32,858 bases of DNA from a virus: IMG/VR virus record IMGVR_UViG_3300027906_000072, positions 1 through 32,858 of that record; one strand, 5' to 3'. Positions 80 through 21,252 of this stretch are shown here, one piece after another. The position numbers and the translations under genes are program-made. The notes under the pieces were generated by a model. That model had not been told where the DNA came from and did not search any database. It was given only the letters and a program-made list of their open reading frames with translations. Position 1 is the stretch's first letter, and every line of letters starts with the position of its first letter.

Positions 80-2476
80 ATGTCAAGGAGAATATTTACA
101 CAACAATCTTATTTAAATTATTTGTTATTAAGAGATTTGAAAAGCCTATCAGCTTCGACACCTCGAAAGAACTTGCCTGTTTTAAAAAATGTCAGCAAAC
201 TAACAAAAACTAGGACTGCAAAAGTATTAAAATTGACAGGCGCCTACGAACCTACGACCGTAATTAGTCGGTTTAAAATGCCGAAAAAAAGGTCTAAAAA
301 CTGGAATAAAAACTTTTTAAATCTTACCCCGGCAAAACTATCTATGCTAGTGCCAGAAGTCAGGTTATATTTACTGGACCCATCTGATGAAAAAGGAAAA
401 AAGTTGAAACCTTTTTATTTCCCTGTATCAACTGATTATAGCGTTAGTGACGTGAGCGGCCGCATTATAAATAAAGCCCCAGGAGTAGGTGCCAGCGGTG
501 GAGCAACGGTGGATACTTTAATGTCCCCCTTTACAGCAGCCGCAGCATCTATAGAGAACTTTTCAGTAACTTTACGAGGCAACAATCTTTTCGAAGTGGG
601 TAGAAAACAATTAGACGCTAAACTTTCTATTAATTTGGATAACCTGACAAAGTTGTTTGATACCCCAAGCGACTTATACGCCCCTTTAGCTGATTTATTT
701 ATGATCCGAACTTCAACAGCCCGTAAAAAACTTGCAGCCACAGCCAACAAGCCGGCTGGAAATGCTTTGAAAAATGGAAAAAGCCTCCAAGTAGTAGCAA
801 CGATGGGTTACTCGACATCTTTGAATAGTGATGTTTTCACATCAGATGAACTTAAACAAATTCAGAAATCAAAAATAATAATAAATCTTTTCTACGGAGG
901 ACAACATGATATATCGCTAAAAGAGGATGGCTCAGCAAAGGTGTCAGTTAGTTATAATGGCTTCCTTTCCGCTACCGAAGGAGATTATGATTTCGATGCT
1001 ATAGCTTCGATGAAAGCAAAGAAAAAAAACTTAGAAAGAAGAGCGGCTTTGACTATTGATAAAACAGCCGACGCCAAATCCCTGGCTAAACCAAAAGCAG
1101 ACAACGCTAAAAGTTCTAAGAAAAAGAAAGAAGATGCATTACAAGAAATTAATGATGTAGATTTCTCTAAAAGAAAAATTATATTTAAAAAAACAATAAA
1201 AAAACTTTTTGGAACTCCAGAAAAAGCTGGACAATCAAAAATATATACATTTGCTTATAAAGACCCAGAGGATTCTTATTTTGATAGCAAATCCACAGGA
1301 AAGGCCGCCAAGACTGCCCCACCCGGGAAGCAAAAATCTTGGTTAGCTTCTTTTGAGTTTGATTCCTTGCCGGGTACTGAGCCAAATAAGAGGTCGCCTT
1401 TAGATATATATAAATCAAATAGGTATATAAATTATATACTTTTGGGTGATTTTGCACACTCATTTATTAAGCAAATGGAAGACCAACTGCTTGGCCTCTT
1501 GGCCACGACGGACAAAGCCGCGCTGAAAGACCCGGCAATCCTTGCGCAGAGGAAAGACCTTCAGCAAGCAATATCCGCGGTTTCGAAACAAGCACTACTA
1601 TTTTCAGATATAGATCTAATGCCGGCAGTCAATCCCAGTAAAGAAACTTATAGGTTGAACTTAGCAGATCTGCCCATAACTTTAGGAAATATTTGTACAA
1701 CATATTATGATGAAATATCCTCTAGAAGCACTAAAAATGCATATAGTTTGAAAGAATTTATAGAAAACTTTATTCTTAGCCTAGCTGGAAATTCACTTAG
1801 AGAGATCGCAGGTACATCAGTTTTTAAAAATGTTGTATTGAAAGCTGTTCCAACTTTCGCACCGCCCCCGGCGGTAAAGACTATAGGTGGCTCGCAAACA
1901 GTTAATATAGGGAGAATATCGAGAGGGACTCAGCAAACTATAAAAAACAATACTCAATACACGATATATTCCCAACAGGCAACTTGGTCTAGTAAGCCGC
2001 CAGGAGACGGTGATGTCAAAAAAGATGCAGATAACGGTATAATACATTTGCTGGTTTCTAAAAATCAAGGATTAGTCAAAACAATACAGTTTACACAAAT
2101 AGATATCCCGGGAAAGAAAGAATACCACGTCGCGTCAGATGGTCACATGTTCGACGAACTGAGGGTGCCAACCAACGCAACAGTAACTTTATTCGGAAAC
2201 AGTATTTTCAACCCAGGTATGATTATATATATAAACCCAACGTCTATTGGTTTTGGTGACCCAAGAGGTTTCGATTCTGCAGCCGTCAGGTTAGGCATTG
2301 GAGGTTACTATACTGTGCTTACTGTCGACACTAGCTTTAGTAAAGCCGGAACGCTAACAACCACATTATCCTGTGCATATTTAGGCCCACCTGAGACTGC
2401 AAAAGATAAGTGGCTCACTCCGGGTAGGCAAAAGGCGAATGAGGAGGCGATGAATATGGCCCTCCCGCAGAGGTGA
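80..2476 (+). CDS. large probable virion protein (tail/baseplate-like)
   Basis: This 798-residue protein has no signal peptide or membrane segment. No enzymatic motif was recognised. A Lys-rich, low-complexity stretch lies near residues 310-390, with repeated KKK runs. The C-terminal 80 residues contain a Gly-rich beta pattern (NPGMIIYINP, then LGIGGYYTVLTVD, then a Thr-rich strand). From memory this resembles the C-terminal domain of large tail or baseplate proteins of marine myophages. Its size and its position directly upstream of a second large structural-like gene fit a virion role. A baseplate hub or tail-associated protein is the best guess, but the exact identity is not established. 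Confidence 0.6.
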   Translation: MSRRIFTQQSYLNYLLLRDLKSLSASTPRKNLPVLKNVSKLTKTRTAKVLKLTGAYEPTTVISRFKMPKKRSKNWNKNFLNLTPAKLSMLVPEVRLYLLDPSDEKGKKLKPFYFPVSTDYSVSDVSGRIINKAPGVGASGGATVDTLMSPFTAAAASIENFSVTLRGNNLFEVGRKQLDAKLSINLDNLTKLFDTPSDLYAPLADLFMIRTSTARKKLAATANKPAGNALKNGKSLQVVATMGYSTSLNSDVFTSDELKQIQKSKIIINLFYGGQHDISLKEDGSAKVSVSYNGFLSATEGDYDFDAIASMKAKKKNLERRAALTIDKTADAKSLAKPKADNAKSSKKKKEDALQEINDVDFSKRKIIFKKTIKKLFGTPEKAGQSKIYTFAYKDPEDSYFDSKSTGKAAKTAPPGKQKSWLASFEFDSLPGTEPNKRSPLDIYKSNRYINYILLGDFAHSFIKQMEDQLLGLLATTDKAALKDPAILAQRKDLQQAISAVSKQALLFSDIDLMPAVNPSKETYRLNLADLPITLGNICTTYYDEISSRSTKNAYSLKEFIENFILSLAGNSLREIAGTSVFKNVVLKAVPTFAPPPAVKTIGGSQTVNIGRISRGTQQTIKNNTQYTIYSQQATWSSKPPGDGDVKKDADNGIIHLLVSKNQGLVKTIQFTQIDIPGKKEYHVASDGHMFDELRVPTNATVTLFGNSIFNPGMIIYINPTSIGFGDPRGFDSAAVRLGIGGYYTVLTVDTSFSKAGTLTTTLSCAYLGPPETAKDKWLTPGRQKANEEAMNMALPQR

Positions 2477-2489
2477 TAGGAATATTATA

Positions 2490-3848
2490 ATGGAAGATAA
2501 TGACGAAAATAACACACCCTTCATGGGTGGTTTGGTAGAGACAGATGCCGAACAATATGAAGAAAGAAGAAGGTATTCTACGTATGCATCAAACTACGCC
2601 ATAGGTACCCCTCTTCTAGATACCATAGAAGAAAGAAAGCTTTATGGTTTTTTGGATCATAATTATCACCCAATAGAGCCAAACGCAGAAATACAACCCA
2701 CAACAGGTCAACCAATCGGAGTAAAAACTTTTGAAGATTACTCACCAGAAATTTATGGTTTAACCTTCGTAGTGGACCTGTTTACTGATTTTAGAGATTA
2801 TTATATAGACCTAATGAGAAAAACCGGTTTAACCCTACCGGAAGAGATTTCTTCATTGGTACCAACTAGATCATTTAATGAGGTAGATATAGATATCATA
2901 CAATACGAGAGAGAACTGTCTACAAATATAAATAATTTTATTCTTTCAGAAGAAAACACCCCTCAAAGTAGGCACCCTCTAGAACTAAAAGAATACTTGA
3001 AAAAAGTATCTGTAGCTATGTTTGAAAACAACATGATTAAGTTTAGCATAACAAAATCAGGGTTTTTACTATCTCAAAGAAGCACAGTTTACAACACAGG
3101 TTTATACATAGATTTGTTTTCAGGCGGAGATCCTGAAATAGATGTTGACAAGCAGAAGATTTTAGAGTATGATGGATTTAAATGTTTTGTAGAAAAAGCT
3201 TGGGAGCACGGATTTTATGTAGATAAGAACTGTCCCTGGCGTTTAGTTTTAAATCTAGATTCTCTGAAGGTGAAAAAAAATATTATGTTTTCTGATGGTG
3301 AGAACCCTACAAGGGAACTTTTAAGGTTTAATGATTTTTATTCCAATCAAAAAACCATAAAAACAGGACTAGATGATTATTGGTTTTTGAGAGAGTTCAT
3401 CAGAAAAGCGTACTATGAATACAGAATCGCGTTAGGATCTGAAGAGCAGCCCGTTGAAGTTTATATGAATAACCAAATGACAGAAATAAACGATAACGTT
3501 TGGCTTGAACACTTGATCAAATATCGTTTAAAAGAGCTTGGATACCTCAAAAAAAGAGACCTCTCAACAGACTCAGAAGGCGCCACATCGATGTATCTCT
3601 TATACCAAAATATGCTTTCGGGCGCTAAAAGAAGACTACAATTAAGAGGCCAACTCCCAGAGGGTACAAATGTCCCCATGGCACAGTTATATGGACTTGA
3701 GGGAACTTCCGGGGCCTTAAGATACATTGAAACCCGCTGCGCAAAAATAATAAAACACGAAATAGAAAAGTCAAAAAACAAAAATTTTAATAATAGACAC
3801 ACCAGTGGATATTTGTCGGAGAGCACGATTGATCTTACAGACTCTTGA
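2490..3848 (+). CDS. probable virion structural protein
   Basis: This 452-residue soluble protein begins 13 nt after the previous stop, with AGGA about 8 nt before its ATG. The N-terminus is acidic (MEDNDENNTPFMGG). The middle contains HGFYVDKNCPWRLVLNLDS, a pattern I associate with conserved but uncharacterised virion proteins of T4-like marine phages. No enzymatic motif is visible. It probably forms an operon with the preceding large protein. Its 3' end overlaps the start of the family A polymerase gene, so structural and replication genes are transcriptionally linked here. Structural role is inferred from context and a weak motif resemblance. Confidence 0.55.
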   Translation: MEDNDENNTPFMGGLVETDAEQYEERRRYSTYASNYAIGTPLLDTIEERKLYGFLDHNYHPIEPNAEIQPTTGQPIGVKTFEDYSPEIYGLTFVVDLFTDFRDYYIDLMRKTGLTLPEEISSLVPTRSFNEVDIDIIQYERELSTNINNFILSEENTPQSRHPLELKEYLKKVSVAMFENNMIKFSITKSGFLLSQRSTVYNTGLYIDLFSGGDPEIDVDKQKILEYDGFKCFVEKAWEHGFYVDKNCPWRLVLNLDSLKVKKNIMFSDGENPTRELLRFNDFYSNQKTIKTGLDDYWFLREFIRKAYYEYRIALGSEEQPVEVYMNNQMTEINDNVWLEHLIKYRLKELGYLKKRDLSTDSEGATSMYLLYQNMLSGAKRRLQLRGQLPEGTNVPMAQLYGLEGTSGALRYIETRCAKIIKHEIEKSKNKNFNNRHTSGYLSESTIDLTDS

Positions 3849-4959
3849 TATAAAGAATAATTGCAAAGGTGTATTTTACAGAAATAGAGTAATAGAAGAT
3901 CCTGATTCACAAATTTTAAAAAAGTGCAAATATACATGGAAATACTCAAATATACTAGAGAATTATGATTATGAATATCTTTCTTTGTATTTAAGGGGGC
4001 AGGATCTCGAACAATACGCGGATGACATCGATGCATTTACCGAAATAAGAGACACAATATTAAGCCAACAAAAAGCGGCCAAAATAGCGAAAGTTGAATT
4101 ACAAAATCAATGTTTTTTCAATATCCTACCAGAATTTCAGATCAAAAAATGGTTTTCTCTCCGTCACAGCGCTCTGGAAAGAGTATTAGATCAGGTACCA
4201 CGCCCACCCGAATACGATATATTATATAAGGCCCATGTTTTATGTAGTTTTATATCCAAAAGAAATTTTATTTACCAAGATAAGCTAGGGAGCATCGACT
4301 ACAATATTTTTGGATCCGTTACAGGTAGGCTGACAACAAAAAAAGGATCCATTCCTATCTTGACAATGAAGAAAAAAGAAAGGCGCCATTTAAGACCAAA
4401 CAACACGGCCTTTTTAGAATTGGATTTCAATGCTGCAGAAGTTCGAACCCTGATTGCCCTCTCGGGCCAAGAGCAGCCTATTGGAGACATACACAACTGG
4501 ATCTCAAAGCTCATATATGATGGAAAACTTCCTAGGGAGAAAGTAAAGACAGAACTTTTCGCATGGTTATATAATTTTTCAGCTTCAGAAAATGAATTAT
4601 CTAGAATTTTTTCTCGGCAAATTTTTCGAGATTTTTATTCTAAAAGGACGGGTATTTTAAAGACACCTTTTAAAAGGGAGATAAAAGTAGAGGAGCGAAA
4701 GGCACAAAATTATTTGCTTCAATCAACAACTTCTGATATAGTGATAGAAAACGCATATAAAATAATGAAAATCCTAAGTGATAAAAAGTCTGACATTGCA
4801 TTTTTATTACATGACTCAATAATTATTGATCTCCACAAAGATGATATTCAATTGATAAAAGATTTAAAATCTATTTTCGAGAAGACCGCTTGGGGTAATT
4901 TCAAAAGTACTTGTAAAGTGGGTAAACACTTTGGTTTATTGAGGGAGATGAAAATATGA
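3829..4959 (+). CDS. small DNA polymerase A family protein (palm/fingers only)
   Basis: The family A core motifs are visible in order, numbered from the longest GTG start at 3805. They are TGRLTT (173-178), motif A with D207 (ELDFNAAEVR), DIH (228-230), an O-helix with R244-x3-K248-x3-F252-x3-Y256 matching the Pol I R/K/F/Y spacing, QNYLLQS (301-307), and motif C HDS with D337. The catalytic carboxylates and nucleotide-binding residues are therefore present. No 5' nuclease or 3'-5' exonuclease domain fits in about 376 residues, compared with about 600 for a Klenow fragment. I chose TTG 3829 because GGAGAG (3818-3823) sits 5 nt upstream; GTG 3805 gives 8 more residues. It overlaps the preceding gene and abuts the tubulin-like gene. 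It probably acts in gap filling or repair, because a full DnaE replicase lies downstream. Confidence 0.85.
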   Translation: MILQTLDIKNNCKGVFYRNRVIEDPDSQILKKCKYTWKYSNILENYDYEYLSLYLRGQDLEQYADDIDAFTEIRDTILSQQKAAKIAKVELQNQCFFNILPEFQIKKWFSLRHSALERVLDQVPRPPEYDILYKAHVLCSFISKRNFIYQDKLGSIDYNIFGSVTGRLTTKKGSIPILTMKKKERRHLRPNNTAFLELDFNAAEVRTLIALSGQEQPIGDIHNWISKLIYDGKLPREKVKTELFAWLYNFSASENELSRIFSRQIFRDFYSKRTGILKTPFKREIKVEERKAQNYLLQSTTSDIVIENAYKIMKILSDKKSDIAFLLHDSIIIDLHKDDIQLIKDLKSIFEKTAWGNFKSTCKVGKHFGLLREMKI

Positions 4960-5834
4960 AAAACGTCATAGGTATCGGCACTGCAGCATGCAAATTAGTT
5001 AACCAGCTTAAGAAATACCCTGTTTACAACTGTTTTTTTGTATCAAACGAGATAACAAAAACCTCCAAATACAAGTTTTCATTACCCACTTTATCAGGTC
5101 CCGAAGAATATGAAGACATTGATATGTCAAAGCTGTGTAAGTGGCTTGAAAAAATAGAAAAAAAAGTAACTATTTTTTTGAATGGAGGCTCTGATTCAAC
5201 CGGTATATCTTTGAGAATGCTGGAAATTTTACATAACAGATCTGTAAAGATGGATATTGTTTATTTTATGCCGGAAATAGAGGTACTTTCAGAAAAGAAG
5301 ATCCTTCTTGAGCGCTCAGCCAGGGGAATTTTGCAGAATTTTGCACGTTCAGGCCTTTTTGAAAAAATAACTTTAATATCAAATACTGAATTAGAAAAAC
5401 TGGCAGGATCAACCAACGTTTTTGATTATTTTGATCAAATAAATCATGTATTTACGTCCTCATATTATATGTTGGACGTATTTAAAAATACTAAACCAAT
5501 TACATCAACATTTAAAATTCCTAAGGAATCTTGTAGGATTTCATCAATAGGGTTATCCACCCTCACCGGCGAAGATAAATTATTTTTTCCTTTCAAGGGA
5601 GAAGTAGAGGTGGTATACTATTTTGGTATCAACGAAGATAAACTTAGGACTGAAGAGAACCTTTTCCGAAAAATTACTGATATTGTAAAATCAAAGATAA
5701 CTAAAGAAAAAAAAGTCTCCTTTGGAATCTATCCGACAAAATATGATCAAGATTACGTCTATATAGAGTGTTATTCGCCAAAAATTCAACAATTTATGAA
5801 AGAAGAAAATGAAACAGAGAACAATCCAGGATGA
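4956..5834 (+). CDS. divergent tubulin/FtsZ superfamily-like protein
   Basis: The 292-residue protein follows the FtsZ/tubulin order. An N-terminal strand and T1-like Gly loop GIGTAACKL (6-14) come first. A strand running into a T4-like loop NGGSDSTGIS (76-85) stands where FtsZ has GGGTGTG. Then come a strand DIVYFMPE, a helix ERSARGILQNF, the strand LISNTELEKL (140-149) resembling the FtsZ IPNDKLLK segment, and a helix FDYFDQINHVF (157-167) resembling LDAFGAANDVL. The C-terminal part (about 215-280) matches the pattern of the FtsZ activation domain. The T7 loop, NVDFADVR in FtsZ, would align with TSTFKIPK (183-190), which lacks catalytic Asp residues. If the fold is right, GTP binding may be altered and GTP hydrolysis weak or absent. 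The gene overlaps the polymerase by 4 nt and the nuclease-like gene by 26 nt. The call rests on alignment by eye. Confidence 0.62.
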   Translation: MKNVIGIGTAACKLVNQLKKYPVYNCFFVSNEITKTSKYKFSLPTLSGPEEYEDIDMSKLCKWLEKIEKKVTIFLNGGSDSTGISLRMLEILHNRSVKMDIVYFMPEIEVLSEKKILLERSARGILQNFARSGLFEKITLISNTELEKLAGSTNVFDYFDQINHVFTSSYYMLDVFKNTKPITSTFKIPKESCRISSIGLSTLTGEDKLFFPFKGEVEVVYYFGINEDKLRTEENLFRKITDIVKSKITKEKKVSFGIYPTKYDQDYVYIECYSPKIQQFMKEENETENNPG

Positions 5835-6372
5835 TGTGCGAGAAGTTTCGCAAGCAAAAATATTTAAACTAAAATTAACACAAGGAAGATCAAACAGGTA
5901 CCTGCCCGATGCATCTCTAACAATCGGCCCTCGGTCACTGGATGTTGAATTAAAAACATGTAATGTATCCACTGGCAAGAACCAAGTTTCTACGGCAAGA
6001 GGTGTTAACCTTTCGAAAATCAATGAGTGGAGAAAGGTTCATTTGTGGATATTTTCAAAACATGAGAACAATATATTAATAAATGACCACTACGTTTTAA
6101 CTTCCTCTCAGATGGAAACATTTTTCAAAAAATGTGAAGAAAAACTAGGCACAGGGTCAAAAAAGCTAGCCGGCTTAAATGACTGGAAAAAAGCCTCAGT
6201 AATTTTGAAAGAAAGTGGCCTAGATACAGAAGTTCTAGATAAGCTGGAATATGCATTCAGTCACAAGGGCGTAGCTCTCAACGATCCCAAAATCTCTTGG
6301 TCGTATGTGGAGCAAAACGGGACAAAAATAAGCTCTTCGGCCGAATTAAGAAAAATAGCAAAAAACGCTTGA
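5809..6372 (+). CDS. PD-(D/E)XK nuclease-like protein
   Basis: This 187-residue protein contains YLPDASLTIG followed by SLDVELKT, giving P33-D34 ... E47-x-K49, the core of the PD-(D/E)XK nuclease/restriction endonuclease fold. A Ser/Gln-rich strand (NQVSTARG) follows, then a long strand VHLWIFSKH that would complete the sheet. Small length and a single nuclease core resemble stand-alone type II restriction-like or phage recombination nucleases. No methyltransferase is adjacent. The gene overlaps the tubulin-like gene and ends where the SSB promoter begins, so it closes the polymerase/tubulin/nuclease group. Substrate is unknown: host DNA, competing phage DNA, or branched replication intermediates are all possible. 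Confidence 0.55.
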   Translation: MKQRTIQDDVREVSQAKIFKLKLTQGRSNRYLPDASLTIGPRSLDVELKTCNVSTGKNQVSTARGVNLSKINEWRKVHLWIFSKHENNILINDHYVLTSSQMETFFKKCEEKLGTGSKKLAGLNDWKKASVILKESGLDTEVLDKLEYAFSHKGVALNDPKISWSYVEQNGTKISSSAELRKIAKNA

Positions 6373-6397
6373 CTTAATCATCAAAATAAGATATTAT
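6369..6397 (+). promoter_or_regulatory. sigma70-like promoter for the SSB-UvsX operon
   Basis: TTGACT (6369-6374), a 17-nt spacer and TATTAT (6392-6397) form a near-consensus promoter. The -35 box overlaps the stop codon of the preceding gene. Transcription would start near 6404 and give a leader of about 75 nt before the SSB start. Confidence 0.75.
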
Positions 6398-6407
6398 ATA
6401 AACAGTT

Positions 6408-6440
6408 GGTCGGGATATTTGCCGACCTGCTATAGCCAAA
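6408..6440 (+). promoter_or_regulatory. leader hairpin / possible pseudoknot upstream of the SSB gene
   Basis: GGTCGG (6408-6413) pairs with CCGACC (6422-6427) around an 8-nt loop. The loop end TTTG (6418-6421) can pair with CAAA (6437-6440), which would make an H-type pseudoknot. An A-rich, weakly structured stretch follows up to AGGAGG (6464-6469), 9 nt before the ATG. T4 gene 32 mRNA has a 5' pseudoknot followed by an unstructured A/U-rich operator through which gp32 represses its own translation. The layout here is the same, so autogenous control is inferred. Confidence 0.45.
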
Positions 6441-6478
6441 CGTGCAAAAAAACAACATACCATAGGAGGTAATATAAA

Positions 6479-7228
6479 ATGGCACTTAATTTAGACGCAA
6501 TGAAAGCGAAGTTAGATAAACTTAATGGAAAGGGAGACGGAAAGAAAAATTTCTGGCGCCCTGAAGATGGAGAAAGCAATATTCGTATTGTTTCAACTCC
6601 CGACGGAGACCCTTTTAAGGAAAAATTTTTCCACTACGGTGTTGGGGGACAGTCTTTTCTCTGTCCCAAGCGAAACTTTGGGGACGACTGCCCTGCATGC
6701 AATTTTGCAAACCAGCTTTGGAATGAGGGTACAGAAGAAAGTAAGAAGCAGGCAAAGGAGATGTTTGCAAAACAGCGTTTCTTTTCACCTGTCCTTGTAA
6801 GAGGGGAGGAAGATCAGGGAATCCGAGTCTGGGGGTATGGCAAGATGGCTTATGAAAAGCTCCTTACAATTGTACTCGATCCTGACTACGGAGATATTAC
6901 CGACCCTGAGACTGGAAACGACCTCAAATTGATGTATGGAAAGTTGCCCGGAGCTAGCTTTCCACGGACAGATATCCGCCCACGACCGCGCAAGACCGCT
7001 CTATGTGATGAAGCTGTCGGGGGCGACGATCGTTGTGCGGAGTTGCTAGAAACTATCCCGAACTTTGAAGATCTTTTTGAAAGAAAGTCGACAGAAGAGG
7101 TACAATCAATTCTGGATCAATTTATGGCCTCTTCAACAGGAAGCCCAGAGATGGAGAAGTTTGGTTCAACCCATACAAGTGAAGAAAGTAGCGTCGAGGC
7201 AGCTTTTAATGATCTCCTGAATCAGTAG
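6479..7228 (+). CDS. single-stranded DNA-binding protein, T4 gp32-like
   Basis: This 249-residue protein coats ssDNA during replication and recombination. The candidate zinc site H52-x9-C62-x8-C71-x2-C74 (FHYG .. LCPKRNFGDDCPAC) mirrors the H-C-C-C zinc ligands of T4 gp32. The N-terminus is basic (KAKLDKLNGKGDGKK) and could serve cooperative self-interaction. The C-terminus is acidic and Ser-rich and ends in AAFNDLLNQ, typical of the protein-interaction tail of SSBs. It has the strongest Shine-Dalgarno in the region (AGGAGG) and its own promoter, consistent with abundant expression. It is co-directional with UvsX, its expected partner, 7 nt downstream. gp32-like identity is well supported by motif and context. 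Confidence 0.88.
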   Translation: MALNLDAMKAKLDKLNGKGDGKKNFWRPEDGESNIRIVSTPDGDPFKEKFFHYGVGGQSFLCPKRNFGDDCPACNFANQLWNEGTEESKKQAKEMFAKQRFFSPVLVRGEEDQGIRVWGYGKMAYEKLLTIVLDPDYGDITDPETGNDLKLMYGKLPGASFPRTDIRPRPRKTALCDEAVGGDDRCAELLETIPNFEDLFERKSTEEVQSILDQFMASSTGSPEMEKFGSTHTSEESSVEAAFNDLLNQ

Positions 7229-7235
7229 GTAAAGA

Positions 7236-8369
7236 ATGCCAAAATCCAAAGTAACCAAATTAAAGAAGGGCGCCCTAGACATAGCCTCTATCCGAGGAAT
7301 CATCAATAAGAAAGCAGGCAGAGAGGTGGCTCATTCACTTCAGGACAGTAATCCAACAGAAGTGAATGAGTGGATACCTACTGGCTCACGGTGGCTTGAT
7401 GCTATCATTTGTAAAGGCCGCGCCGCAGGGATCCCCGTCGGCAAGATCTCAGAAATTGCAGGTTTACCAGGAACCGGCAAGTCATTCTTAGCTGCACAAA
7501 TCGCTGGAAATGCTCAAAAGATGGGTATTGACGTAGTTTATTTCGATTCAGAGTCTGCTATTGATCCTTCTTTTATGGAACGCGCAGGATGCGACTTGGA
7601 CAGGCTTATGTATGTTCAGGCAGCATCTGTTGAGTTTGTTTTGGAAACCATCGAAGAATTGTTAGCTACTGGTAATAAGTGGCTCTTCATTTGGGATTCT
7701 CTGGCACTCACTCCATCGATTTCAGATGTTGAGGGGGACTTCAACCCTCAGTCTTCGATGGCAGTAAAGCCTAGAATCCTAGCTAAGGGAATGTCTAAAT
7801 TAACTATCCCTATCGCTGATGCAGATGCTACCTTTCTGGTCCTCAATCAACTGAAGACTAACCTAGGAGCAAGAACACCAGCACAGGCCATGACTGAACC
7901 ATATACAACTCCAGGTGGAAAGGCTATGATTTATGCTTATTCCCTTCGTGTGTGGCTCACTGCAAGAAAAGCTAAAGCTAGCTTCATCGTCGACGACAAT
8001 GGCTTTCGCATTGGGTCTGAAGTTAAAGTAAAGCTAGAGAAGTCCCGTTTCGGTACTCATGGCCGCACCTGCAACTTCAAAATCCTATGGGGTGACGACT
8101 CAGTTGGTGTTCAAGATGAAGAAAGCTGGTTTGATGCGATCCAAATTTCTGAAAGACTTGAGCAGTCTGGTGCATGGTTTACACTGATTCACAACGATGG
8201 GTCGAAGGAAAAGTTCCAGCGCAAGCAATGGGTCACTAAACTTGAGAGTGAAAAATTTAGAGAAAGTGTCTTGACTATTATTGAAGAAGATGTTATTATG
8301 AAGTTCAAGAATAGAGAAGGCAAAGCAGACGACTTCTACGACGCGGATGACGCCCCGCCGACAGAATAG
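7236..8369 (+). CDS. uvsX: UvsX/RecA-like recombinase
   Basis: This 377-residue ATP-dependent strand-exchange protein forms filaments on ssDNA for recombination-dependent replication and repair. Walker A GLPGTGKS lies at 76-83. The catalytic Glu is probably E106 in YFDSES, matching FIDAEHALD of RecA. Walker B WLFIWDS ends at D154. An L2-like region around NQLKTNLGARTPAQAM and a PGGKAMIYAYSLRVWL strand follow the RecA core order. Length is close to T4 UvsX (about 390). It is encoded immediately after the SSB gene and ahead of a strong terminator, so the two form a short operon. The acidic C-terminus (DDFYDADDAPPTE) is typical of RecA/UvsX proteins. Confidence 0.93.
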   Translation: MPKSKVTKLKKGALDIASIRGIINKKAGREVAHSLQDSNPTEVNEWIPTGSRWLDAIICKGRAAGIPVGKISEIAGLPGTGKSFLAAQIAGNAQKMGIDVVYFDSESAIDPSFMERAGCDLDRLMYVQAASVEFVLETIEELLATGNKWLFIWDSLALTPSISDVEGDFNPQSSMAVKPRILAKGMSKLTIPIADADATFLVLNQLKTNLGARTPAQAMTEPYTTPGGKAMIYAYSLRVWLTARKAKASFIVDDNGFRIGSEVKVKLEKSRFGTHGRTCNFKILWGDDSVGVQDEESWFDAIQISERLEQSGAWFTLIHNDGSKEKFQRKQWVTKLESEKFRESVLTIIEEDVIMKFKNREGKADDFYDADDAPPTE

Positions 8370-8419: not shown

Positions 8420-8938
8420 ATGAGAACAATTGAATTATGGGAAAACAAAAATACAAAGTCAGATAAAGTGTGCATAATCGACGATGAAGATTACGATAAA
8501 GTAGTAAAGTCAATAGGCCCGCGGGCAAAATGGTATGCTCACAAGCCGCCAGGCGCCACTTCATATTATGCGGTAAATGGAAACCGTCGCATCTCCATAC
8601 ACAGGATTGTAATGAACCCGCCTAAAGGTATGGTAGTGGATCATATAAATGGCAATGCGTTGGATAATAGAAAAGAGAACTTGCGAGTTTGTACATATTC
8701 GCAAAATAGTTGTAATAAAAAAATTAGATCAGATAGTCAAACGGGATACAAAGGCGTTACTAAAGTTGGTAATCGCTTTGCAGCTTACATCGCGGACCCC
8801 GTAACCCCGGCAACAAAAAAAAGACAAATTAGATTGGGAACCTATGATAGTCCTGAGGAAGCAGCCATGGTGTATGATAAAAAAGCAAAACAGATTCACG
8901 GAGAGTTTGCTCTCCTAAATTTTCCAGAGGATAAATAA
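8420..8938 (+). CDS. HNH endonuclease with AP2 DNA-binding domain (free-standing homing type)
   Basis: The N-terminal half carries an HNH core: HRIVMNPPKGMVVDHINGN with D74-H75, then LDNRKENLRVCT. The C-terminal 65 residues are an AP2-like DNA-binding domain (GYKGVTK.. to RQIRLGTYDSPEEAAMVYDKKA). This pairing is typical of mobile intronless homing endonucleases in phages. I chose ATG 8420 because GGAG (8410-8413) is 6 nt upstream; an in-frame TTG at 8408 lies at the terminator T-run and is less likely. The gene sits between a terminator and the exonuclease gene, whose ATG shares one base with its stop codon. Insertion between replication genes is the usual location for such elements. It nicks or cleaves DNA and is probably dispensable. 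Confidence 0.9.
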   Translation: MRTIELWENKNTKSDKVCIIDDEDYDKVVKSIGPRAKWYAHKPPGATSYYAVNGNRRISIHRIVMNPPKGMVVDHINGNALDNRKENLRVCTYSQNSCNKKIRSDSQTGYKGVTKVGNRFAAYIADPVTPATKKRQIRLGTYDSPEEAAMVYDKKAKQIHGEFALLNFPEDK

Positions 8939-9897
8939 TGAAAAGAATGATGATAGTAGACGCGTATAACCAGTTTATCCGTGGTTATATAGTAGACCCT
9001 AGCAAGAACCCAAACGGCTCCCCTATCGGTGGTATGAGGACGTTTATCAACATCCTGAACAAACTTACTAGAGAGGTGAAGCCAGATTTATTAGTTTTGG
9101 TTTGGGATGGTAAAGGCGGCAGCAAAAAGCGACGCTCAATGAATAAAGATTACAAAGGCGGCCGCAAGCCACCAAGAACTAATTGGTCTCAGGTCGGGAT
9201 GAGCGAAGAAGACATCCTGGACAATAAGGTTTGGCAACAGATGAGAGTAATTGAATACTTTAATCAGACACCAATTATTCAGTTTATGGAACCTCTCGTC
9301 GAAGCGGACGATGTAATTTCATATGTCAAGAATAGCTCCATGTTTTCGGAGTGGCAAAAAGTTATTGTCTCTGCGGATAAGGATTTTATCCAGCTTCTTG
9401 ATGATAAGACTATTTTACATAGACCTATTCAAAAAGAGTATCTTAATAAAAACAGTATAGTAGAGAAGTTTGGAATTCACCCGCTCAACTTTGCATTAGC
9501 TCGGGCCATAGTGGGAGACTCTTCAGATAACCTTCCGGGTGTTCCTCGTGTGGGTATCTCAACCGTCGCGAAGCGATTTTCTTTTTTAAGTGAGGAAAGA
9601 ATATACTATTTATCTGACGTTGTCACTGAATGTGAAAAAACCGAGAACAAACAGAAGGTATACACAAATATTTTAGACAATGAGGAATTAATAGAAAACA
9701 ATTATGATATTATGCAATTATCCTCCCCCATGTTATCCATCCAGGCTAAACAAGGAATTGATGATACGTTTGAACAATATAAGCCTCATTACAATCAGAC
9801 GGAAATAAGAAAGCTCATGCTCCAAGACGGAGTACTCACAGTATCAACAACTGATTTGGAGCAGAGATTTAACAATATTATTGCTTCCTTTTCTTAA
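8938..9897 (+). CDS. 5'-3' exonuclease / RNase H of the FEN family
   Basis: This 319-residue flap nuclease would remove RNA primers from Okazaki fragments. Metal ligands are visible along the family pattern: D8 (IVDAYN), D57 (VWDG), E122-x-D124-D125 (EADDVIS), D147-x-D149 (SADKDF) and D194/D197 in GDSSDNLPGVPRVG (193-206). That last segment is also the helix-3-turn-helix DNA-binding motif. Length and isolated nuclease domain match T4 RNase H (about 305) rather than the N-terminal domain of Pol I. This fits the mini Pol A at 3829, which has no 5' nuclease of its own. It lies directly upstream of the helicase with a small promoter-bearing gap. Confidence 0.92.
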   Translation: MKRMMIVDAYNQFIRGYIVDPSKNPNGSPIGGMRTFINILNKLTREVKPDLLVLVWDGKGGSKKRRSMNKDYKGGRKPPRTNWSQVGMSEEDILDNKVWQQMRVIEYFNQTPIIQFMEPLVEADDVISYVKNSSMFSEWQKVIVSADKDFIQLLDDKTILHRPIQKEYLNKNSIVEKFGIHPLNFALARAIVGDSSDNLPGVPRVGISTVAKRFSFLSEERIYYLSDVVTECEKTENKQKVYTNILDNEELIENNYDIMQLSSPMLSIQAKQGIDDTFEQYKPHYNQTEIRKLMLQDGVLTVSTTDLEQRFNNIIASFS

Positions 9898-9935: not shown

Positions 9936-11312
9936 ATGGAACAAGAGAAGAGTTTCTCAAAATTTGGTAAGAACTTTCAAGAAGATTTGTGTCATTTAAT
10001 ACTCAATGATCGTGGTTTCGCAGATCAAATCTTTGAAGTTTTAGATTTAAACTTTTTAGAGTTAAAACACCTCAGAGTTTTCATTGGAAAGGTTAGTGAG
10101 TATCGTAAAAAATACGGAGTCCACCCTACATCTAACATTATGCTGTCCATCATACGAACAGGTTTGGATGGGGAAGCAGAATCAGTTAAGGTCAGAATAC
10201 GAGAATATTATGCGAGAGTGCTCGCGAACGGACAAGTGCCGGATAGCGCCGATTTTATCAAAGATACAGCACTTGATTTTTGCAAAAAACAAAAACTCAA
10301 AGAAGCACTAATTAAGTCGGTTGATTTAATAAAGTCGTCATCGTTTGACGAAGTATCAAAAGTCATCGATAATGCTCTTAAGTTGGGATCTGATAATACT
10401 CTTGGGTATGATTACTTGGCAGATTTCGAAGCACGTTTCACTAAAAAAGCCAGAGACCCTGTAACTACGGGCTGGAAAGATATAGATGATATTTCAAAGG
10501 GAGGTTTAGGTAAAGGTGAATTGGGTGTCGTGGTTGCTCCTACTGGGGCAGGTAAGTCTATGGTTTTGGTCCATCTGGGCGCTCAAGCACTTAAGAGTGG
10601 TAAAAATGTCCTCCATTACACTCTGGAGCTTGCTGACACTGTCGTCGCAAATCGTTATGACTCTGCTATTACTGGCGTGGAGCTTAAAAATTTAACAATC
10701 TTTAAAGAAAAGATATATGACGAAATTAAGGATATTGAGGGCAAACTGATAGTAAAAGAATATCCTACACGAAGCGCCAACATACAGACAATTAAAAACC
10801 ATGTAGACAAGCTAAAAAGGCGTAATTTCATCCCAGACCTGATCATCGTAGACTACGGAGACCTAATTCGACCAGAAAATAGCAGAAAAGATGAGAAAAG
10901 ACACCAATTAGAAACTATTTACGAAGAGCTTAGAGGAATAGCTCAAATTTGCGAGTGTCCACTCTGGACAGCATCACAAACCAACCGGTCCGGGTTGAAC
11001 GCAGAAGTGATCACAATGGAGTCTATCTCCGAGGCGTTTAACAAGTGTTTTGTAGCAGATTTTATCTTTACAGTCTCTAGAACTGTTGAGGATAAAAACA
11101 CAAACCAAGGTCGTATTTTTGTTGCAAAAAACAGAAACGGGCCCGATGGACTGGTATATCCAATATTCATGGATACCAGTAACGTTAAAATAAAAGTTTT
11201 ACCCAAAACGGGCGAAACTGCTAATGATATTATCCAAAAATCTTCTGCGGAGAGGTTACAGAACCTAAAAGAGAAGTATGCGGTTTTCAAAAGAGAAGGA
11301 GGAAAAAAATAA
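9936..11312 (+). CDS. replicative DNA helicase, DnaB/T4 gp41-like
   Basis: This 458-residue hexameric ATP-dependent 5'-3' helicase would unwind DNA at the fork. A helical N-terminal domain spans about 1-155. The RecA-like motor follows: GWKDIDDISKGGLGKGE, Walker A APTGAGKS (201-208), catalytic Glu in YTLELAD (E231), Walker B LIIVDYGDL (302-310), the Gln-containing strand TASQTNRSG, and the arginine-rich VAKNRNGPDG segment. Length matches T4 gp41 (475). It is preceded by the FEN exonuclease and followed with no gap by the ribonucleotide reductase, so fork progression and dNTP supply are co-expressed. No primase is recognised in the window. Confidence 0.93.
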   Translation: MEQEKSFSKFGKNFQEDLCHLILNDRGFADQIFEVLDLNFLELKHLRVFIGKVSEYRKKYGVHPTSNIMLSIIRTGLDGEAESVKVRIREYYARVLANGQVPDSADFIKDTALDFCKKQKLKEALIKSVDLIKSSSFDEVSKVIDNALKLGSDNTLGYDYLADFEARFTKKARDPVTTGWKDIDDISKGGLGKGELGVVVAPTGAGKSMVLVHLGAQALKSGKNVLHYTLELADTVVANRYDSAITGVELKNLTIFKEKIYDEIKDIEGKLIVKEYPTRSANIQTIKNHVDKLKRRNFIPDLIIVDYGDLIRPENSRKDEKRHQLETIYEELRGIAQICECPLWTASQTNRSGLNAEVITMESISEAFNKCFVADFIFTVSRTVEDKNTNQGRIFVAKNRNGPDGLVYPIFMDTSNVKIKVLPKTGETANDIIQKSSAERLQNLKEKYAVFKREGGKK

Positions 11313-13239: not shown

Positions 13240-13515
13240 ATGAGTTTTAATAAAGAAGAAGATTTGATCACCAAAGAACAGCATTTGGCTAATTATATCA
13301 AAACATTTGTAGCCATCGAAGACGCAATGGAGCCCTTCAAAGAACAAAGGAAAGACCTAAGAGAGTCTTACAATGAAAATGGCTGGTTAACTAAAGAGGA
13401 AATGAGGCTTGCCGTAAAGGCATATAGGCTTTATAAATCTGAAACAGATATGGAACTTTTAAACGATTATGTGAATAAATGCCAAAGATCTGTTGGGAGA
13501 CTAACCGGTGTCTAA
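13240..13515 (+). CDS. small helical protein, possibly GapR/DUF2312-like
   Basis: This 91-residue, highly charged, mostly helical protein runs NYIKTFVAIEDAMEPFKEQRKDLRE, then an NGWLTK turn, then RLAVKAYRLYKSETDMELLNDYV. That arrangement of a long amphipathic helix, a short turn around Gly, and a second helix with KxYRLYK resembles GapR/DUF2312 proteins, which bind AT-rich or overtwisted DNA. The resemblance is by pattern only. It has its own promoter and AAGGA Shine-Dalgarno, and is translationally coupled to the GroES-like gene (8-nt overlap). A DNA-binding role in replication or nucleoid structure is a reasonable guess. Confidence 0.5.
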   Translation: MSFNKEEDLITKEQHLANYIKTFVAIEDAMEPFKEQRKDLRESYNENGWLTKEEMRLAVKAYRLYKSETDMELLNDYVNKCQRSVGRLTGV

Positions 13516-13831
13516 TATACATAGGTTAAAACCGACAAACAGGCATATTTTGATAGTTCCTCATGAAAAAGAAAATAAGACTCAAACCGGGGTACTTCTA
13601 CCTGAAAATTATGAGCCTGAAAAATCAAGATACATCGAAGCAACAGTCATAGATGTTGCGGAAGATTGTAATGAATGTTTCAGACGCCTCAACACCAGCG
13701 CGCCTCAAGATGACAAAACAATTCTTATAGATAGAGCTATGATACAAGAAGTGAATATGTCAGACAAAAAACATTTTCTAGTTCTTGAGAATTATGTGTT
13801 AGGTTTTTATACTAATACTTCAACAATTTAA
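13508..13831 (+). CDS. GroES-like co-chaperonin
   Basis: This 107-residue protein has the Cpn10 beta-barrel start LKPTNRHILIVPHEKENKTQTGVLLPE, equivalent to the GroES RPLHDRVIVKR segment and mobile loop with its hydrophobic GVLLP edge. EATVIDVAEDC then matches the A-V-x-x-V-G strand. The middle (NECFRRLNTSAPQDDK) is longer than in GroES, as in T4 gp31. It would cap either the host GroEL or the phage GroEL at 28642. The GTG start at 13508 overlaps the preceding stop by 8 nt, with GGGAG upstream. It is not next to the phage groEL gene, which is unusual compared with bacterial groESL operons. Confidence 0.8.
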   Translation: MSNIHRLKPTNRHILIVPHEKENKTQTGVLLPENYEPEKSRYIEATVIDVAEDCNECFRRLNTSAPQDDKTILIDRAMIQEVNMSDKKHFLVLENYVLGFYTNTSTI

Positions 13832-13902: not shown

Positions 13903-16026
13903 ATGAAATATAAAATATTGGCAATAACCCTAATACTGACAGCGGCATGCCAGGATAACCAACCAAACTCCTCTTCTTCCGACGAAGACGCCTCCAGAAT
14001 AATCTCAAATACAATGGATGCATCCGCAGTCGACCAAGAAGTAAATGTAATTGAATGGGTCCCCCCCGATATGTACATCGACCCATGTGTGGATATTACA
14101 AGTACAGACCCACGCTTTTGTGATTGTAAGCCACAATGTTGTCAACGGCAGATGTGGTATTGCCCCCCTTCGGGGCTGGGAGTTCAGGCAGCAGAAGTTA
14201 CGATGAACATTTGCGATGATGAATACAACATTTGTGACAGGTCCATCGATTTGACCTGTCCCCCGAACGAGATTTTATCTAGATCAAATTGCAACACCAT
14301 TTTAGAGTGTCCACCTGGAATACAAAACGACATAACGATTACAGTCCAATGCGAAATTGAAGGCGTTCAAGGAGAACAAGAAATCTTATGTCAAAAGGGA
14401 GAAATAATATATGGAGAGTGCGTGATCTGTGAGCCTTCGGAGGAAAGATGCAATTATCAGGATGATGATTGCGATGGTCAAATTGATGAAGAACAGAGAA
14501 ATGCTTGTGATGAATGTGGGCCTCTACCACCCGAATCCTGCGACAACGTCGATAATGATTGTAATGGTCAAATAGATGAGGAACTTGTCAGGGAGTGCCA
14601 GACTGCCTGCGGCCGCGGCCTTGAAGTATGTGAAGCGGGTAACTGGATATCTTGCACAGCGCGCCAACCGATAGAAGAGGAGTGCGATGGTGAAGATAAT
14701 GACTGCGATGGTCAAATTGATGAAGGCTTAAATTGCCTTTGTACAATCGATGATGTGGGAAATCTTATACCCTGCTCGGAGCCTCCGCTTGTCTGTGGAC
14801 AGGGGTTTAAGACTTGTGAATGTGTTGATCCCAATTGCACAGAGATGAGGATGACCGACTGCGCAGCGCTTTGCAATTATGTTCCGATCCCATCCCCACC
14901 TGCATGCGATCCATTGCGTGGGTTAATCACACAAGAAGAGTGTAATAATTTTGATGAGGATTGCGACGTACAAATTGATGAAAACCTCTCTCAAGCATGC
15001 TACACTGGTCCCCCAGACACTCTTTTGGTCGGCGTGTGCGCACCGGGCGAGGCATATTGTTTAAACGGTGCCTGGGGCGGAGATAGGAATAATCAATTCG
15101 AACCCGGTTTTTGTCCAGGCGAAATTACCCCCCAAGAAGAAATCTGTGACGGCGCCGACAACGACTGCGACGGTGAGGTGGACTACGGAGAAGAAATTAG
15201 AGAAACAGATATATTATTCATAGTTGACTGGTCAGGCTCTATGGATGATCAAATCGGCGCTGTAAAGGTCGCTCTTAATCGGTTTGCTACCCATTTTGCT
15301 GCTGAGGAGCCATTGCAATGGGGCTTGGTCATCGGCCCTAAGGAGCTTGTTGAGGATGGGGACGAGACACTAGTTTTGGTTTCTGATATCTCTCCCTTTG
15401 ATCAATTTTTAAATTCTTTTGCCGCCCTTGGCAGCGCAGGTATGGACACCGGTAGCGAAATGTTATTAGACGCCGTTTACCTAGCAGTTAGAAACATCTC
15501 AGCCGCGGCCAACGTTGACCTCGCGACAACTACCTGGTGGAGAAACACTGCATCTGTCCCTGAGAAAGAAAACTTTATAATTAATTGGCGCCCTACATCT
15601 GAAAGAATAGTAATAGTTTTTAGTGACGAAGAAGAGCAGTCATACCTGAGGGATATAGGGGACCCTGAAGGGCCCGGCAGACCAATCACACAAGCGATTG
15701 TCGAAGACGCCGTACGCGGTGGTATAAATCTCAAAGTATATACATTTTCGTCCGGCAGAGCTTTCGGAGGTAGAAATTTCGACTGGGAAGATATCGCGCT
15801 AGCAGGAAATGGTTCTCATTTTGAGTTAACCTCTGACGCACTCAGTATGTATAACGATTTAATGTCTATTATAGATGAAGCTTGTTTACCCAGAGAACAG
15901 GATCAGCAGCCAGCAGCCCAAGAAGACGAAAATCAGCAAGGGGCATTTAACATCCCAGGTGGTTTTTTTTTCTCAAAGGCATCATATTCGGCACGGTATG
16001 ATTACAAATATAAAGTATGCTTTTAA
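13903..16026 (+). CDS. secreted lipoprotein with MopE-like Cys/Asp repeats and a VWA domain
   Basis: The 707-residue protein begins with a lipoprotein signal peptide (MKYKILAITLILTAAC, lipobox Cys16) and a Ser/Asp-rich tether. A Cys-rich region (about 50-175) follows. Then come five copies of a Cys-Asp motif of the type CDxxDNDCDGQIDE (about residues 180-430), known from MopE-like putative metal-binding repeats. From about residue 435 there is a von Willebrand A domain with MIDAS DWSGS (in FIVDWSGSM), a Thr in GMDTGSE and the strand IVIVFSDEEEQ. It would be exported, lipidated and bind divalent metal and probably a protein partner on the cell surface or periplasmic face. Such proteins are frequent in Myxococcota and relatives, so capture from the host is likely. 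It may act in superinfection exclusion or host-surface change, or modify adsorption. It overlaps the next gene by 10 nt. Confidence 0.82.
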   Translation: MKYKILAITLILTAACQDNQPNSSSSDEDASRIISNTMDASAVDQEVNVIEWVPPDMYIDPCVDITSTDPRFCDCKPQCCQRQMWYCPPSGLGVQAAEVTMNICDDEYNICDRSIDLTCPPNEILSRSNCNTILECPPGIQNDITITVQCEIEGVQGEQEILCQKGEIIYGECVICEPSEERCNYQDDDCDGQIDEEQRNACDECGPLPPESCDNVDNDCNGQIDEELVRECQTACGRGLEVCEAGNWISCTARQPIEEECDGEDNDCDGQIDEGLNCLCTIDDVGNLIPCSEPPLVCGQGFKTCECVDPNCTEMRMTDCAALCNYVPIPSPPACDPLRGLITQEECNNFDEDCDVQIDENLSQACYTGPPDTLLVGVCAPGEAYCLNGAWGGDRNNQFEPGFCPGEITPQEEICDGADNDCDGEVDYGEEIRETDILFIVDWSGSMDDQIGAVKVALNRFATHFAAEEPLQWGLVIGPKELVEDGDETLVLVSDISPFDQFLNSFAALGSAGMDTGSEMLLDAVYLAVRNISAAANVDLATTTWWRNTASVPEKENFIINWRPTSERIVIVFSDEEEQSYLRDIGDPEGPGRPITQAIVEDAVRGGINLKVYTFSSGRAFGGRNFDWEDIALAGNGSHFELTSDALSMYNDLMSIIDEACLPREQDQQPAAQEDENQQGAFNIPGGFFFSKASYSARYDYKYKVCF
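14438..15190 (+). repeat. five degenerate Cys/Asp repeats encoded in the lipoprotein gene
   Basis: Repeat units start near 14440, 14534, 14676, 14935 and 15140. Each encodes a C-x4-D/N-x-D-C-D/N-x-Q-I-D-E type unit (NDCDGQIDE in the cleanest copies). Three copies share GGTCAAAT(T/A)GATGA at the DNA level, while the last two have diverged. They are separated by Cys-containing spacers of unequal length. The acidic Asp pattern suggests Ca2+ or other metal binding. Confidence 0.8.
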
Positions 16027-17644: not shown

Positions 17645-17828
17645 ATCCATATACAACGAAATCCCATACCAGATAAAAGCAATGGTGAATTTCCCAGATG
17701 CCTATATTTTCTTGACAAACGAGCAAGAAAATTTTATAATCAATTTGTTTGAAAATGAAAGACAATTGGTAAAAGAGACACTACTTGAAACAATTGATGA
17801 AATGAAAGGAATAGTAGATGAAATCTAG
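17625..17828 (+). CDS. small acidic protein upstream of the DNA polymerase III alpha gene
   Basis: This 67-residue protein is acidic and helical in its second half (NFIINLFENERQLVKETLLETIDEMKGIVDEI). ATG 17625 is chosen because AAAGGA (17615-17620) lies 4 nt before it; an in-frame TTG at 17607 has no such site. It overlaps the nucleotidyltransferase-like gene by 20 nt and the dnaE start by 11 nt. Translational coupling to the polymerase suggests it could be a polymerase partner, but there is no motif to support this. Confidence 0.6.
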   Translation: MNTKYIESIYNEIPYQIKAMVNFPDAYIFLTNEQENFIINLFENERQLVKETLLETIDEMKGIVDEI

Positions 17829-20800: not shown

Positions 20801-21252
20801 CGATATCAGAGAAGCGCCCACGGAAGGAGAAAAATTTAATTGAAAACATTAAATTGTATGCCCCGGAAGGAGATTTCTCAGAAGAGGAGAAGCTCGAACA
20901 TTTGGTTAATTTGACCGGGGTTTTTCCTATTAGCGCAGTTGTTACACCGAGAGTCAGACAAAAACTAGATGAACTTTACATTCCGCCCATTTCTGAGTTT
21001 GATCCTGAGCTTGGAGTCACTTGGTTTATCCCTCGCGAGTGCAAGTTGAAGAAGTCAAAAAACGGTAAGAACTTTTATGTCGTTAAGGTTATCGATGATA
21101 ATAACGAAGCAAGAGTGATACGTTGTTGGGGAGTGGACCCGGAGAGAGATATCGTACAAATTAATCGCCCATACATGGCTAGGTTAAATTATAATCAGCA
21201 GTGGGGATTTTCCACTTTTAGTATGAGAAAAATGTTTAAATTATTAGCTTAG
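17818..21252 (+). CDS. dnaE: DNA polymerase III alpha subunit, DnaE-type, with PHP domain
   Basis: This 1144-residue replicative polymerase is close to the length of E. coli DnaE (1160). The N-terminal PHP domain keeps likely metal ligands H15-x-H17, H50 (LTDHG), E80 (GCEAYF), H135, C186 and D260-x-H262 (ADSHYY), so it may have intrinsic nuclease activity. A Lys/Ser-rich insert lies at about 90-130. The palm contains GAGRGSAAGSL (429-439), PDIDYD with D471 and D473, and D636 in KFDILGL, which match catalytic D401, D403 and D555 of E. coli. YRPGPLGAG, LIFQEQ and GYGFNKSHAVSYC follow in normal order. A short C-terminal region has a weak OB-like strand. No epsilon exonuclease, clamp or clamp loader was seen nearby. 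Confidence 0.96.
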   Translation: MKSRVKNSIPFVGLHAHSVAGSPFDALGYPPDHMDFAYQNGMDALALTDHGNMNGLAWQVLHAKKMLQAGKEFKPIFGCEAYFIPSVKKWKKEYDDVKAASKKKSDYEAGNSGTTVENEGASKKKIKSILNRRRHLILLAMNQTGLQNIFKMISQSYSGDNFYRYPRVDYDMLQKHNEGVIAASACLGGIYAGNYWENRDTGPDAILHAMRETTQNMQSIFGDRWYGELQWNNVPEQHDLNQYIIQMHQEFGVELISTADSHYYNADVWKDRELYKRLGWLGKGKPDYLSDELPLSVEEVGYELYPKNGDQMFESYKKYSKECGVEYDDKLILDSIARTHQIAHDRIDTFLPDNTVRLPDFVVPEGSTAAQTLAALCVEGLRSLDLHTKPEYVTRLKHEVGVIEERGFSKYFLTMKSIADVAVDKQLVGAGRGSAAGSLVAYVLNITQVNPIKYGLQFERFLTKGGAGYPDIDYDVSDPMVLKEILIDQWGDNSVVPITNWNTLQLRSLIKDISKFYGIEFTEVNNVTSKMVYEATPLAKKKHGITAGVYVPTFEELMEFSESLQKFLQKYPHIKTHIEKLYGQTRSASRHAGGVVVGENLDQWMPLINSGGVRQTPWSEGQNVRHLEPMGFIKFDILGLASLRMLEGAIERILKRHHGMVKPTFADIKDFYDKNLHPEKIDLDDKEVWQNIFHKGKWAGIFQFTEPGAQSFCKNAKPDNIIDLSAITSIYRPGPLGAGVDRKYIGAKSNPEDVEYVNNHVREVTEETYGFLIFQEQIAMLAHKLGKDLSLDEGNKLRKLLTKKGTGEVQTQKDKIFDKFKRGCLEKGMKDYEARELWETFEYFSGYGFNKSHAVSYCVLSYQCAYLLNYYPAEWLAAFLDKEPETRKERAIATAKSLGYIVEPLNINTSGANWEISEDGQTLIQPLSSIKGLGIKAIEQIINNRPFNTIEEFLFHPDITYSKLNKKSIHALTLAQALNILMDDRFTGLKHFWTAISEKRPRKEKNLIENIKLYAPEGDFSEEEKLEHLVNLTGVFPISAVVTPRVRQKLDELYIPPISEFDPELGVTWFIPRECKLKKSKNGKNFYVVKVIDDNNEARVIRCWGVDPERDIVQINRPYMARLNYNQQWGFSTFSMRKMFKLLA

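Follow-up and report, generated by a model that had tools for sequence, protein, structure and literature searches.

A divergent tubulin/FtsZ-superfamily protein encoded beside a short DNA polymerase in T4-like marine phages, with a putative GTP pocket and without a canonical T7 loop

A gene directly downstream of a phage DNA polymerase gene, carrying several motifs that recall tubulin and FtsZ, raises the question of whether its product is a tubulin at all and, if so, what such a fold does at a replication locus. The gene lies in a viral DNA of 32,858 nucleotides (positions 1 to 32,858 of IMG/VR record IMGVR_UViG_3300027906_000072), which was analysed at its full length and is referred to here as the window. 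An earlier note made from the letters of this DNA had read it as a divergent tubulin/FtsZ-like protein within a phage replication cluster:

4956-5834, plus strand: TUB, open reading frame for a protein of 292 aa with a predicted divergent tubulin/FtsZ fold

The name TUB is used for this product and for its family. The first 4 bp of the gene are also the last 4 bp of the upstream polymerase gene (PolA), start and stop sharing ATGA at 4956-4959, and the reverse strand across 4956-5834 contains many stops. Iterated searches (successive yields of 4, 28, 189 and 440) retrieved at least 440 related IMG/VR loci, mostly on contigs named after JGI metagenomes with sizes up to 190 kb, and the identity of the family members to the TUB of the window ranges from about 70% down to 27%. 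An alignment of 81 diverse members served as the basis of the conservation counts and of the AlphaFold2 model. Codon comparison of 135 close pairs gave a median dN/dS of 0.067, indicating that TUB is under purifying selection, and the gene is present in single copy in 14/14 long records. TUB is a conserved gene and belongs to the core of a single lineage of T4-like marine phages, with records of 130-190 kb. The T4-like character of the lineage is evidenced by gp23 (13/14 long records) and Terminase_6N (12/14), and the nearest terminases are those of Flavobacterium phage immuto (46%) and Microcystis phage Mel-JY01 (41%). The latter has PolA, a single-stranded DNA-binding protein, RecA, exonuclease and helicase in the same order; a 428-aa gene at the place matching that of TUB was considered as a homologue and discarded, being a SAM-lyase-like protein and not a tubulin. 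The photosystem gene psbA, sought as a host marker, was not found, and the terminase relatives hint, with uncertainty, at marine Bacteroidota as hosts. The T4 late-promoter motif TATAAATA showed no excess in the window and was rare upstream of the genes of the locus.

Searches by sequence gave little. The TUB of the window had no match in Pfam, PHROG or the PDB, and tblastn of INPHARED (50,697 phage records) with this sequence and two distant members returned no match. Nothing usable was obtained from a search of GTDB contigs or from hhalign of single sequences of TUB and Escherichia coli FtsZ; an hmmsearch of the PDB with TUB family profiles reached FtsZ at E=2 only, and the PHROG matches listed for TUB members included no tubulin family. 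Weak matches to YjeF_N, TrkA_N, phrog_10453 and phrog_24253 were taken as chance or generic Rossmann similarity.

The structural comparison points in one direction. The AlphaFold2 model built from the 81-member alignment has a pLDDT of 94.3 and a pTM of 0.91 (an earlier model from 5 sequences was poor, with a pLDDT of 53, and Foldseek still returned FtsZ). When the better model was compared with the PDB, the best 50 Foldseek matches were all FtsZ, with E-values down to 5e-14; the matches to FtsZ are full length, with TM about 0.63-0.70, ~310 aligned columns and 12-16% identity. In a viral structure library every entry named FtsZ, PhuZ or tubulin is among the first nine matches (8-11% identity), and no relative closer than these was found there. 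The model shows the two-domain architecture of the superfamily, namely a Rossmann-like N-terminal GTPase domain, a central helix H7 and a C-terminal domain, so that TUB almost certainly has the tubulin/FtsZ fold.

Profile comparison gave an independent line of evidence. The TUB family aligned by hhalign over residues 4-179 to a set made up of FtsZ and PhuZ, with six sequences each, plus another phage tubulin, with Prob 92, a score of 55.7 and E=5e-7, this E-value belonging to a one-profile comparison and being valid for that one pair only. As controls, 40 column-shuffled alignments scored 20.7 or less, the reversed alignment scored 19.1, and comparisons with two unrelated families gave E-values of about 0.3; the real score thus reflects an agreement in motifs that exceeds chance. 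The matches to FtsZ alone (E 0.0015) and to PhuZ alone (E 0.0035) were weak, global alignments to either of them added no information, and against phiKZ PhuZ alone hhalign found no sequence relationship (E=0.26). Similarity to the superfamily is therefore significant with family profiles on both sides, and not with single sequences or Pfam alone. Fold and profile place TUB in the tubulin/FtsZ superfamily, as a minimal and divergent member, and both checks that the earlier note had proposed for this identity, a predicted structure and a profile match, bear it out.

The segments that the note had quoted (GIGTAACKL, NGGSDSTGIS, LISNTELEKL and FDYFDQINHVF) are all present, and in the model each sits in its counterpart among the tubulin/FtsZ elements: T1 after S1, T4 before H4, S6-T6, and the long H7 (residues 155-177). 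The nucleotide-binding and catalytic elements map to the gene as follows:

4965-4997, plus strand: T1 loop region, residues 4-14 (VIGIGTAACKL; family consensus IIGLGxAGCNI)
5091-5117, plus strand: T3-like loop, residues 46-54 (LSGPEEYED)
5184-5204, plus strand: T4-like loop, residues 77-83 (GGSDSTG), aligned to FtsZ GGGTGTG by hhalign
5382-5384, plus strand: Asn143 of T6, putative guanine contact, aligned to FtsZ ITIPN
5418-5486, plus strand: long central helix H7, residues 155-177, with an aromatic residue at 159 and Asn163 (tubulin-like LNH motif)
5487-5537, plus strand: position of T7 and H8, residues 178-194, from the AlphaFold2 model and the 81-member alignment

In the S1-T1 segment (residues 2-14), which hhalign aligns to FtsZ VIGVGGGGGNAV, G8 is conserved in 81/81 members, A10 in 75/81 and G11 in 72/81. 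Residues 46-54 are probably equivalent to the T3 of FtsZ, judging by their position, and E50 (80/81), Y52 (81/81) and E53 (81/81) are nearly or fully invariant in them. The T4-like loop is looser: G77 occurs in 78/81 members and the remaining positions vary (GASNSSG, GGSGDIS and CGASIVS in other members), so that the departure from GGGTGTG seen in the window holds across the family. TUB does not conform to the signature [SAG]GGTG[SAT]G, and this does not exclude it from the superfamily since accepted PhuZ proteins fail it as well. The contention that PhuZ keeps the GGGTGTG signature turned out to be wrong, as six PhuZ read GGASGST, GGGSGST, GGGSGSV, SGASGSS, SGGSGSV and AGASGST, making the T4 departure less distinctive than the loss of T7 and H8 described below.

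In both tubulin (Y224, N228) and FtsZ, the guanine site consists of an Asn (or Asp) in T6 and one in H7, together with an aromatic residue four positions ahead of the H7 one. The residues expected for it are found in TUB, with Asn143 in 80/81 members, N163 in 80/81, and a Y, F or H in 75/81 at position 159, four residues before N163; the QINHVF of the window is close to the LNHLV of tubulin. In one outlier member (L156) both pocket asparagines are missing in the alignment.

The segment in which T7 and H8 would be expected is different. Residues 178-194 count exactly 17 in 81/81 members and contain no predicted helix, hence no H8. NxDxxD in this segment was found in 0/81 members, in agreement with the suspicion that the catalytic T7 Asp residues were missing; D..D occurs in the segment in three of the 81, and D..[DE] near T7 in 10/81. 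At the end of the segment, just before strand S7, position 194 is basic in every member (R in 76, K in 5) and would lie at the lower face of the protein. FtsZ uses its two T7 aspartates to activate a water molecule for attack on the GTP bound to the adjacent subunit (PMC8936486). With the pocket residues conserved and the T7 aspartates and H8 absent, TUB appears to have kept the pocket and lost the known activating element. Q127, R131 and S132 are also conserved in 81/81 members.

The protein shares with FtsZ the whole-length two-domain fold, the order of T1, T4, T6 and the long H7, and the guanine-contact Asn in T6 and H7. It differs in its low identity (~14%), in T4, in the loss of NxDxxD and H8, in a shortened region between S2 and S4 and in being encoded in a phage replication locus. 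Its C-terminus follows strand S10 by no more than about 20 residues, and neither the C-terminal linker nor the conserved tail peptide of FtsZ, of the type that binds FtsA or ZipA, is present. Lacking T7, H8 and the C-terminal tail, TUB is not FtsZ proper.

The neighbourhood of TUB in the window is that of a replication module:

3805-4959, plus strand: short family-A DNA polymerase (PolA), 384 aa (PF00476 E=3.6e-10; PDB profile matches to Taq and Klenow)
5809-6372, plus strand: PvuII-like endonuclease (PF09225 E=6.3e-08), an accessory insertion between TUB and SSB
6479-7228, plus strand: gp32-like single-stranded DNA-binding protein, SSB (PF08804 E=2.7e-11; phrog_1192 3.5e-23)
7236-8369, plus strand: UvsX/RecA-like recombinase (phrog_97 1.8e-58)
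8938-9897, plus strand: 5'-3' exonuclease (PF02739 1.5e-24)
9936-11312, plus strand: DnaB-like helicase (phrog_19 1.1e-76)

No exonuclease domain was found in the 384-aa PolA. Across 167 loci the gene order is a baseplate-type gene, two variable genes (~920 and 407 aa), short PolA and TUB, followed by the gp32-like SSB, UvsX, the 5'-3' exonuclease, DnaB and a class II ribonucleotide reductase. PolA lies directly upstream of TUB in 154/167 loci, with a gap of 20 bp or less in 117 of the 154, and SSB lies downstream in 162/167. A search anchored on PolA found TUB directly downstream in 77/78 loci, the sequence of the exception ending ~290 bases after PolA. The earlier note had placed TUB between a polymerase and a nuclease; the polymerase stands as a fixed neighbour and the nuclease does not, the PvuII-like gene being present in 3/167 entries, two of which are this window itself, and the constant downstream neighbour being SSB.

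The TUB-SSB interval (5834-6479 in the window) is a preferred site of accessory genes, with more than 400 bp inserted in 22/162 loci. In 23 loci a short ORF is found between PolA and TUB (e.g., L098:7661-7996); it begins with NKLVRDKIP and resembles, by eye, a MazG-like pyrophosphohydrolase, and a PHROG search of it returned no clear family. A conserved element was also observed just upstream of the SSB gene:

6404-6431, plus strand: ssb-leader stem-loop

It has a near-invariant loop with an ATTTG core, compensatory changes at 9/10 pairs (19 sequences) and a z-score of -2.6 in the window, and corresponds to no Rfam family; it may serve as a translational operator, comparable to the leader of gene 32 in T4.

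Upstream of PolA (80-3848 in the window) lie two hypervariable genes, ~37% identical where UvsX is 96% identical, which in relatives adjoin a baseplate-type LysM protein and for which no Pfam or PHROG family was found above noise. For pairs of loci with UvsX at least 90% identical, the mean identity rises from 37% in the two variable genes to 66% in PolA, 72% in TUB, 90% in SSB and 96% in UvsX. This gradient suggests recombination around a variable tail-type locus, with a hot spot at the variable genes. In one recombinant pair PolA is 58% and TUB 91% identical, showing that the two genes can be separated. Considering the gradient and this pair, the parallel divergence of PolA and TUB was not taken as proof of physical contact, and the pair itself argues against a tight interface between the two proteins.

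Altogether, we favour the reading, to which we assign a probability of about 0.45, that TUB is a GTP-binding tubulin homologue with slow or no hydrolysis that scaffolds phage replication. Its gene is coupled with that of the short PolA as a pair and is retained by the whole lineage. From the residues of the pocket, it is very probable that the protein binds GTP; canonical hydrolysis is probably weak or absent, which fits the loss of T7 and H8, as no TUB subunit could supply a catalytic T7 loop to its neighbour. The products would then be stable oligomers or protofilaments of TUB, joined head to tail with GTP bound, which would scaffold or position the phage replication complexes, unlike the dynamic cytomotive filament of PhuZ; this role as an oligomeric scaffold is proposed tentatively, at somewhat less than even odds. 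Inside the tubulin dimer lies an interface that does not hydrolyse GTP; by analogy with it, the invariant R/K194 may stand in at the lower face for the T7 aspartates.

Oligomers without T7 are conceivable, as truncation of the T7 loop to a non-catalytic form still allowed FtsZ to crystallise as a filament with GTP bound (PMC8936486). Among the matches listed for TUB is PDB 3wgm, an FtsZ engineered to have a truncated T7 loop; it is a T7-defective FtsZ fold that binds GTP, although this is a laboratory construct and retains the remainder of FtsZ. On the other hand, the T7 of FtsZ also carries assembly contacts and the D210N mutant is impaired in assembly (PMC8936486), and so the loss of T7 might prevent TUB from polymerising; the absence of a filament-stabilising C-terminal helix or tail of the PhuZ type also counts against filaments. 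In addition, the nearest isolates, Mel-JY01 and immuto, replicate with no TUB homologue detectable in them, and this counts against the scaffold reading, although a remote homologue could have been missed.

If TUB does not polymerise, it could be a GTP/GDP-responsive replisome accessory, acting as a monomer or dimer on PolA, SSB or another protein and using the fold to sense nucleotide and not to build filaments. The strict adjacency and overlap with PolA, the loss of the polymerisation-linked T7/H8 segment, the invariant Q127, R131 and S132 as candidate contact residues and the fact that a T4-type sliding clamp (PF02916) was not found in 15 records are all in line with it. Gene adjacency alone, however, does not show contact, and the identities of PolA and TUB are decoupled in at least one pair. 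The window also encodes a DNA polymerase III alpha (DnaE with a PHP domain, 1144 aa, 17818-21252) alongside the short PolA; since DnaE is likewise present in 12/14 long records (and not in Mel-JY01), PolA need not be the main replicase. An accessory of this kind seems unlikely on balance.

The asymmetry of TUB, with the pocket kept and T7 lost, is what would be needed by an FtsZ mimic that blocks host division, the intact top face joining the end of an FtsZ filament and the defective lower face stopping its growth. The closest structural matches are FtsZ and not TubZ or PhuZ, and phages do attack FtsZ, through Kil (PMC3961180), Icd (PMC11897509) and T5.008/Hdi (PMC10714956). However, these published inhibitors are unrelated proteins of small size; TUB, unlike typical host-takeover genes, has a fixed core place within the replication locus and is under purifying selection; and with only ~14% identity to FtsZ a matching interface is not evident. 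A capping function is distinctly improbable.

A slightly slimmer chance is given to a dynamic cytomotive filament of the PhuZ/TubZ kind, centring or segregating phage DNA with a GTPase that would use residues outside T7. The fold, the pocket and the phage setting are shared, T4 departs from GGGTGTG in both PhuZ and TUB, and residue 194, basic throughout the family, might contribute to catalysis. But PhuZ keeps its T7 aspartates, and its filaments involve a C-terminal helix and tail (PMC3678025), whereas TUB has neither NxDxxD nor H8 nor a C-terminal tail. PhuZ is 8-11% identical to TUB by structure alignment and comes from nucleus-forming jumbo phages, a different lineage. TubZ of plasmid and phage partition systems has the tubulin fold and was matched by Foldseek with the first, poor model of TUB; it is longer (about 360-410 residues in the matched structures), and no TubR-like partner gene was identified. 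A second tubulin (L263:1887-2981, minus strand, 364 aa) was observed in one of the 14 long records (G006, the record of L099), at a locus other than that of TUB and near apparent tail genes; it matches CetZ 3zid (E=1.7e-6) and has no relative in INPHARED. It belongs to the same superfamily and phage lineage as TUB and differs in keeping a GGGGGTGSA signature and the T7 D..D.

Lastly, the possibility that TUB is another Rossmann-like nucleotide-binding enzyme with a T1-like glycine motif by chance, to which weak matches of single members to NAD-binding Pfam families (TrkA_N E=0.016, YjeF_N E=0.00084) might point, is very remote given full-length PDB matches to FtsZ only among the best 50, the recovery of every named tubulin/FtsZ protein of the viral library within its first nine matches and a profile alignment that includes T6 and H7.

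The scaffold reading has a more far-reaching version that we regard as doubtful, in which the family would be a static, GTP-locked scaffold fixed in a viral replication module, that is, a naturally non-hydrolysing homopolymeric tubulin for DNA replication whose T7 switch was lost in every member and replaced by an invariant basic residue at the lower interface. Other genes of the window were noted in passing. An IMP dehydrogenase/GMP reductase-family gene (22757-23806), also found in 12/14 long relatives and in Mel-JY01, is possibly linked to guanine nucleotide supply. GroES-like (13508-13831), ClpP-like (25073-25711) and GroEL-like (28642-30210) genes are present as well, together with a gene for a 707-aa protein (13903-16026) with repeated MopE-type copper-binding motifs (PF11617 E=3.9e-10).

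Tubulin homologues have been reported to distinguish the Chimalliviridae, with a handful in other large phages (PMC11835377), and the profile cut-off applied in that study (E below 1e-5, over 30 bits) may have missed the TUB family, which within the open full texts appears to be an undescribed branch of the superfamily. The phage tubulins described so far come mainly from jumbo phages that form a nucleus, in which they serve to position DNA. The present phages are smaller, T4-like and marine, and they carry the fold as a core gene beside a DNA polymerase and an SSB, in a family of at least 440 IMG/VR loci that goes undetected by Pfam, PHROGs and sequence searches. A natural family with the GTP pocket kept and T7 lacking in all members would allow a direct test of what hydrolysis does in tubulin-type proteins, and TUB would add a role in DNA replication to the tubulin fold.
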